This document shows positions 21,029 to 21,731 of a DNA stretch of 41,159 nucleotides, in pieces. The stretch is from NCBI GenBank assembly GCA_902587085.1, contig CACIJX010000004.1:1-41159 (forward strand), in the 5' to 3' direction. The notes under the pieces are model-generated. The model was not told where the DNA came from. It did not search any database and saw only the letters and a program-made list of their open reading frames with translations. The DNA comes from an uncultured Pelagibacteraceae bacterium. Lineage in GTDB: Bacteria; Pseudomonadota; Alphaproteobacteria; Pelagibacterales; Pelagibacteraceae. The translations under genes and the position numbers were made by a program. Within the stretch, counting starts at the first letter, position 1. Each line of letters opens with the position of its first letter.

Positions 21029-21352
21029 TTAAATTCTTAACAATAATATTACTAATAATAATGTGGATACTATACTAAATAAAACAAGGAATCTGTTTGC
21101 GGCATTTTTGAGTTTAAAATCACTAATATAGTCTTCAAAAACCTCACTTAATGTAAGAGAATAAAAAGTAAATGTTAATAAAAGGAATATTGAAAGTATT
21201 ATTTTTGTAGAAACCAAAGACATATAGTTGATCAATTGAGAATGGTTAGCATCAAAAAGTGAAACAAAGTTTATAATAAACCAGATCATAAAAGGAATTA
21301 ACAAACCTGATGAGATTTTAATTATTAACCATTTTTTTGTAGCTTTGATCAT
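21029..21352 (-). CDS. sdhD: Succinate dehydrogenase membrane anchor subunit D (atypical)
   Basis: 107 aa, three hydrophobic helices, LSEVFEDYI motif (normally ...VieDYv); position between sdhC and sdhA. Confidence 0.88.
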
Positions 21353-21353
21353 T

Positions 21354-21731
21354 TCAAATTAAATTCTTTCCAATTAAATAAAGTAAAATAGCCAGAATAA
21401 ATGATCCTATTATTGTTATAATTCCTGTTAATTGGGATATTTTTAAGTCAAAACCATATCCGAGGTCCCATGCGAGGTGCCTGATCTCATTTAAAATTTG
21501 AAAACTAAATGACCAGCATAAAGCTATAATAAAAAACTTACCAAAAAAAGAATTTGAAATTAATTCAAGAAATTGAAAGTTTTTGCCATTTAAAATTAAT
21601 AAAAATGATAAAAGAATAATGAGTATAAAGTTTACAATTCCAATAATTCGATGAGTTATTGATAGTAGAGATGATATGTGCCATCTGTAAACCTGAATAT
21701 GTGGTGAGAGAGGATTGTTTTTATTTTCCAT
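21354..21731 (-). CDS. sdhC: Succinate dehydrogenase cytochrome b556-type anchor subunit C (atypical)
   Basis: NPLSPHIQVYRWHISSLLSITHRIIGI and NEIRHLAWDLGYGF; three TM helices; first gene of sdhCDAB. Confidence 0.93.
   Translation of the reverse strand: MENKNNPLSPHIQVYRWHISSLLSITHRIIGIVNFILIILLSFLLILNGKNFQFLELISNSFFGKFFIIALCWSFSFQILNEIRHLAWDLGYGFDLKISQLTGIITIIGSFILAILLYLIGKNLI

Follow-up and report, generated by a model that had tools for sequence, protein, structure and literature searches.

Background

The locus described here raises the question of whether a complex II can work when neither of its two membrane anchors offers the histidine that would hold heme b. What heme b contributes to complex II has long been an open question, and in Escherichia coli the heme is dispensable. 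We analysed a stretch of 41,159 nucleotides (hereafter, the window) in contig C4 of a SAR11 (Pelagibacterales) assembly of 700,770 bases that is 58% complete. The first-pass annotation of the window had proposed a functional complex II without heme.

Methods

The comparison set consisted of 203 fetched loci and the locus of the window. The states of the heme-site residues were taken from the alignment; a simple regular expression for the SdhD motif hit other DY pairs by mistake (57 disagreements), and a stricter motif, used to count the named loci again, missed many SdhD sequences. Trees were built on SdhA, and the anchor subunits were left out.

Results

Open reading frames and family models gave a compact minus-strand operon, sdhC-sdhD-sdhA-sdhB, which is a complete four-gene set of type C (Table 1). 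The operon is tightly packed, with 1-4 bases between sdhC, sdhD and sdhA, and 11 bases (21721-21731) of sdhC overlap the end of its upstream neighbour, a gene of 335 aa that presumably encodes an aspartate-semialdehyde dehydrogenase.

Table 1 Genes of the sdhCDAB operon and heme-site residues in the window
Feature	Position	Strand	Basis
sdhC, large membrane anchor, 125 aa, three TM helices	21354-21731	-	PF01127 E 9e-24; TIGR02970 E 5e-28
sdhD, small membrane anchor, 107 aa	21029-21352	-	TIGR02968 E 5e-11, barely above cut-off; 1nek_D profile match E 2e-6
sdhA, flavoprotein, 591 aa	19249-21024	-	TIGR01816 E 1e-284, forward-type enzyme; residue check
sdhB, iron-sulfur subunit, 258 aa	18473-19249	-	family model; residue check
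SdhC Gln78 (CAA), heme b axial-ligand position (E. coli His84)	21498-21500	-	codon and alignment; within helix 62-89
SdhD Phe63 (TTT), heme b axial-ligand position (E. coli His71)	21164-21166	-	codon and alignments; middle of helix 47-75
SdhC Glu82 (GAG), invariant pocket glycine (E. coli Gly88)	21486-21488	-	alignment
SdhD Thr67 (ACA), pocket glycine (E. coli Gly75)	21152-21154	-	codon and alignment
SdhD Lys12, position of E. coli Arg20 (distal propionate)	21317-21319	-	alignment
SdhD Glu70, position of E. coli Gln78 (proximal propionate)	21143-21145	-	alignment; invariant in the SAR11 groups tabulated

In the AF2 models (pLDDT 87 for SdhC and 92 for SdhD), SdhC had long helices at residues 18-48, 62-89 and 96-124, and SdhD had three long helices and one short helix; the C-terminus of SdhC and the N-terminus of SdhD lie on opposite sides of the membrane. 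E. coli SdhC chains matched the SdhC model with a TM score of about 0.7, and the best PDB matches of the SdhD model were E. coli SdhD (TM 0.83-0.85). The predicted anchor fold is that of a type C enzyme, i.e., SQR-type with three transmembrane helices per subunit. With SdhD as a single query, phmmer found no relative in the PDB; the profile search did find one (1nek_D). FrdABCD of E. coli (type D) also has two membrane anchors and no heme; however, the genes of the window score as SdhC and SdhD with a forward-type SdhA, and the SdhD model matches SdhD with a TM score of 0.83 versus 0.54 for FrdD. Anchors of the FrdC/FrdD type, and with them a type D fumarate reductase, were ruled out by the family models and the SdhD structure match.

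SdhC was present once per genome, as was the full-scoring SdhA. No second, heme-bearing SDH was found in nine genomes; the other flavoprotein matches were weaker and, going by length alone, of the AprA or NadB type. Ferrochelatase and a bc1-type cytochrome b were present in all nine of the genomes tested; thus, heme is still made and used, and loss of heme synthesis was ruled out.

The ligand region of SdhC in the window reads FQILNEIRHLAWDLGYG. The 204-locus alignment, which includes E. coli, placed Gln78 on SdhC His84 and Phe63 on SdhD His71, and the profile alignment with E. coli SdhD, ungapped over 99 residues, placed Phe63 on His71 as well. These are the assignments made in the first-pass annotation, of which the CAA and TTT codons proved correct when read directly on the minus strand. 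In heme-type enzymes, a conserved glycine stands four residues past each ligand, and both glycines are replaced in the window: Glu82 agrees with the earlier reading of a Gly to Glu change in SdhC, and our analysis adds the matching loss at SdhD Thr67. In the models, both residues lie in the same helices as the respective ligand positions (SdhC 62-89 and SdhD 47-75). The axial heme residue that a type C enzyme takes from each anchor, which is His in E. coli and in mammals, is absent from both anchors of the window (Gln78 and Phe63), and no conserved transmembrane histidine was found in the SdhD of the window's group.

The FAD-linking and active-site residues of SdhA are kept: His45, His242, Glu255, Arg286, His354 and Arg399 (E. 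coli numbers) are all present, and Ser replaces Thr254. SdhB has all 11 of the E. coli cysteines together with the Q-site residues Pro160, Trp164, His207 and Ile209 (E. coli numbers), and the ubiquinone-site residues of SdhB, SdhC and SdhD that characterize type C are all present. In the 96 SAR11 loci without the SdhD ligand, SdhC Ser24, Arg28, Arg84, His85 and Asp89 and SdhD Asp74/Tyr75 were invariant, and SdhC His27 was present in 94; the same invariance was seen within the window's family in 100 aligned loci without the SdhD ligand (duplicates included), where His27 reached 98%. The quinone site therefore appears to be under constraint, and the residue check and the alignment bear out the intact Q-site, SdhA and SdhB motifs described in the first-pass annotation.

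The 128 distinct SAR11 loci comprised 73 that had lost both ligand histidines, 35 that had lost one, 19 that kept both, and one in which SdhD was unreadable. In the following per-genus counts, which contain a few duplicate loci, states are given as SdhC ligand/glycine + SdhD ligand/glycine: the substitution of the window was common to 24 loci of the same genus, which is mostly Gln/Glu + Phe/Thr with a subclade of His/Glu + Phe/Thr, and to genus g3, in which each of the 45 loci is Gln/Glu and has Phe or Tyr in place of the SdhD ligand. Genus g4 had 21 loci of His/Glu + Phe/Thr and six of Gln/Glu + Phe/Thr. Since the substitution is common to these relatives, a sequence error was ruled out. The isolate Ca. 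Pelagibacter ubique HTCC9565 (locus L204) was Gln/Glu + Phe/Ser. Intermediates that combine SdhC His and Glu with SdhD Phe amounted to 23 loci, and the end states at the lost ligands were diverse (Gln, Tyr, Phe and Asn). All four heme-site residues were kept in genera g5, g9 and g12, and in g2, g6 and g8 both histidines were kept and the SdhD Gly was Ser. In a second family (f2), genera g15 and g17 (L053-L065) had Tyr for the SdhC His and Cys or Ser for the Gly, with SdhD intact, and g16 kept all residues. One locus assigned to the window's genus, L037 (G004), has an intact heme site and an SdhC that is only 50% identical, and adjoins the genus in the SdhA tree; it is either a basal member of the genus or a misbinned contig.

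Outside SAR11, all four residues (both His and both Gly) were kept in 66 of 67 loci from other Alphaproteobacteria drawn across the class and in 49 of the 50 loci drawn from the phylum as a whole, so the pattern in SAR11 is far from chance. The first-pass annotation had considered the loss unexpected for an alphaproteobacterium; it is not a one-genome oddity, since most of the SAR11 loci examined have lost at least one ligand. At the SdhD ligand position, the two non-SAR11 exceptions carry Tyr; one of them has a sister genome with His. In L144 (G228), Tyr and Ser stand at the SdhD ligand and glycine, and L147 (G316) of the same genus keeps His and Gly; this difference is a recent event, and the two genomes are well suited to a comparison. 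In L317 (G640), from an alphaproteobacterium of 1.5 Mb whose family otherwise has large genomes, SdhC reads VHHMVGCIRHIVW and SdhD reads LYYMKLGMQVVIEDY, that is, the SdhD His is replaced by Tyr and the SdhC Gly by Cys; it is likely another independent loss of the heme site. In the phylum draw, L314, L315, L318, L319, L322-L324 and L329-L331 (mainly family f151) have Arg-Phe, not Arg-His, at the position of E. coli SdhC His91 and keep both heme ligands.

On the SdhA trees, about 5-7 changes were needed for the SdhC ligand state, and about 5-7 likewise for that of SdhD. The change counts give no direction; their reading as losses rests on the outgroups and several deep-branching genera, in which the residues are kept. 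A single clade of all SdhC-Gln loci was rejected (p-AU 1e-6), and a single clade of all g1, g3 and g4 loci without the SdhD ligand was weakly rejected (p 0.035). These trees thus suggest that several parallel losses are needed. When ligand loss was tested against glycine loss over independent pairs, all five differing pairs went in the expected direction (p 0.06), the pairs being too few for significance. Because SdhC His/Glu occurs together with SdhD Phe in g4 and at the base of g1, the most likely order there would be loss of the SdhD His and replacement of the SdhC Gly by Glu first, and SdhC His to Gln after. In family f2, the opposite side (SdhC) would have gone first, in a mirror of the route of the first family.

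Discussion

We consider it highly likely, judging from the sequences, that the window encodes a working type C succinate:quinone oxidoreductase that is free of heme, its heme site having been dismantled stepwise and side chains having taken the place of the heme. The heme-less functional complex II of the first-pass annotation is favored by the sequence, by the joint loss of the pocket glycines and by conservation in relatives; the absence of heme and the activity are what we infer. Since heme b lies off the path of electrons from FAD to quinone in E. coli, its loss can be tolerated. Electrons would pass from succinate through FAD, [2Fe-2S], [4Fe-4S] and [3Fe-4S] to ubiquinone, bound presumably by SdhB Trp186/His229, SdhC Ser24/Arg28 and SdhD Asp74/Tyr75. 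The cavity would be closed by side chains, with Gln78 and Phe63 in place of the ligands and Glu82 and Thr67 in place of the glycines that accommodate the porphyrin. In the lineage of the window, the SdhD His would have been lost together with the SdhC Gly to Glu change, followed by SdhC His to Gln.

In its working, the closest known enzyme is complex II of yeast (Saccharomyces cerevisiae), which is free of heme by cryo-EM and spectra (PMC13066397). In yeast Sdh4, Tyr108 stands at the ligand position, and Glu112, at the position of the glycine, bridges Sdh3 Arg97 instead of a propionate (PMC13066397). Both enzymes have the type C fold and Q site, have lost the axial His of the small subunit and carry Glu for a glycine four residues past a ligand (in yeast, this Glu contacts the Q-site Arg); in contrast, yeast keeps the Sdh3 His and has the Glu in Sdh4, whereas the window type has lost both His and has the Glu in SdhC. 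The SAR11 state is bacterial and of independent origin. By sequence, the window enzyme has the marks of the yeast-type heme-free form, namely loss of at least one axial ligand and replacement of a pocket glycine; it is type C by fold, genes and Q site, yet it lacks the cofactor residues that define the type. A subdivision of type C has been called for by the authors of the yeast study (PMC13066397). That article also cites complex II of Tetrahymena thermophila and Perkinsus marinus as heme-free. These would share with the SAR11 enzyme the lack of a membrane heme, but they are highly divergent protist enzymes in supercomplexes, with many extra subunits in Tetrahymena (PMC10238741), whereas SAR11 has a compact four-gene enzyme. 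The engineered heme-free SdhCDAB of E. coli (Tran et al. 2007, as described in PMC3290573) has significant activity and supports growth on succinate, a likeness to what we propose for SAR11; it differs in having no compensating changes, and the isolated E. coli enzyme is said there to need heme for stability. In the open-access literature, we found no report of an SDH free of heme, either from SAR11 or from a natural sdhCDAB of any other bacterium.

As for what replaces the heme, Glu was found at the SdhC glycine position in all 96 distinct SAR11 loci without the SdhD ligand (g1, g3, g4, g7 and g14), an association that does not amount to 96 independent events since the loci are related, and Gly was found there in all same-family loci with both ligands. 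Lys occupies the SdhD Arg20 position in 91 of the 96, and Arg in 61 of 67 loci from other Alphaproteobacteria. In E. coli, the distal propionate is held by SdhC His91 and SdhD Arg20 (with SdhB His207), and the proximal one by SdhC Arg31 and SdhD Gln78, the two pairs being related by a pseudo-two-fold axis (PMC3290573). SdhC Glu82 stands at the pseudo-symmetric counterpart of the yeast Glu112 site, so its natural partner would be SdhD Lys12, and a salt bridge between the two may take over the propionate contact. By analogy with yeast Sdh4 Glu112 and Sdh3 Arg97, a contact of SdhD Glu70 with SdhC Arg28 may do the same; Glu70 predates the heme-site losses and is thus not a specific compensation, and it may have made the losses tolerable.

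A wider reading is that much of the SAR11 order dismantled the site repeatedly, by a selected swap of heme for ionic contacts and along two routes, of which one began with SdhD in the Pelagibacter family and the other was a change of SdhC His to Tyr in the second family. In that case, a large part of the complex II of surface-ocean bacteria would be heme-free, and living intermediates would display the path. We hold this tentatively, at a little short of an even chance. Its rival, which concerns selected replacement and not the absence of heme, is neutral decay: heme b would be dispensable, and the site would have drifted with neither benefit nor compensation. The many end states and the activity of the heme-free E. 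coli variant fit such drift, which we regard as a serious possibility of somewhat lower standing. It agrees less well with the retention of the site in about 112 of 114 other proteobacterial loci (the class and phylum draws combined, which overlap by a few genomes), and with a highly patterned replacement (Glu) that recurs in parallel, this last point being suggestive only, as the loci are partly dependent phylogenetically.

Iron saving in an iron-poor ocean, the rationale offered in the first-pass annotation, would explain why the heme was given up and is compatible with its absence. SAR11 is marine and streamlined, and the gene expression of a SAR11 isolate responds to iron limitation (PMC2864753). 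However, the loss spares one Fe of about ten per complex, which makes a weak case for iron economy alone; moreover, the two heme-related genes remain in every genome tested, and several SAR11 genera keep the full site. We think this account unlikely.

Heme b might instead still be bound through SdhC His85 or His27, or be held five-coordinate or loosely; these histidines are retained, and a weak single ligand is conceivable. The E. coli single mutants SdhC H84L and SdhD H71Q reportedly kept heme, H84L in low-spin form through another ligand; hence, SAR11 loci that have lost one ligand need not be heme-free, and our confidence that those forms lack heme is lower than that for the window enzyme. 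For the latter, binding through such a ligand seems quite improbable. His85, the homologue of E. coli His91, was never missing from the SdhC sequences examined, whether from SAR11 or from other Alphaproteobacteria (67/67 of the latter, and His27 in 66/67), so nothing was gained; the counterparts of both are propionate, heme-face or Q-site residues in E. coli (PMC3290573). His85, suggested earlier as a possible ligand, is thus a ubiquitous propionate and Q-site residue and gives no evidence for a new one. The SdhD of the group has no conserved transmembrane histidine to offer, and both glycines that pack the porphyrin are replaced, one by Glu. The chance that the changes stem from faulty sequencing or binning, or that the genes are degenerate pseudogenes, is negligible: only the incompleteness of the assembly speaks for it, whereas the same residues recur across dozens of species, in single-cell genomes and in a cultured isolate, and the reading frames and Q-site residues are intact.

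Conclusions

Abundant SAR11 bacteria thus probably run a heme-free complex II, without a cofactor that almost all other proteobacteria examined apparently keep. In the proteobacteria surveyed, heme b is kept near-universally despite its dispensability in E. coli; SAR11 provides a natural experiment in which close relatives, cultured strains included, have the site in full, half lost or wholly lost, and these forms allow direct tests of the part of heme b in stability, turnover, reverse electron flow and ROS. Annotation is also affected, since 'cytochrome b556 subunit' is the name that the family model gives to these genes. Confirmation would widen the range of heme-free complex II beyond a few eukaryotes, to bacteria that rank among the most abundant in the sea.
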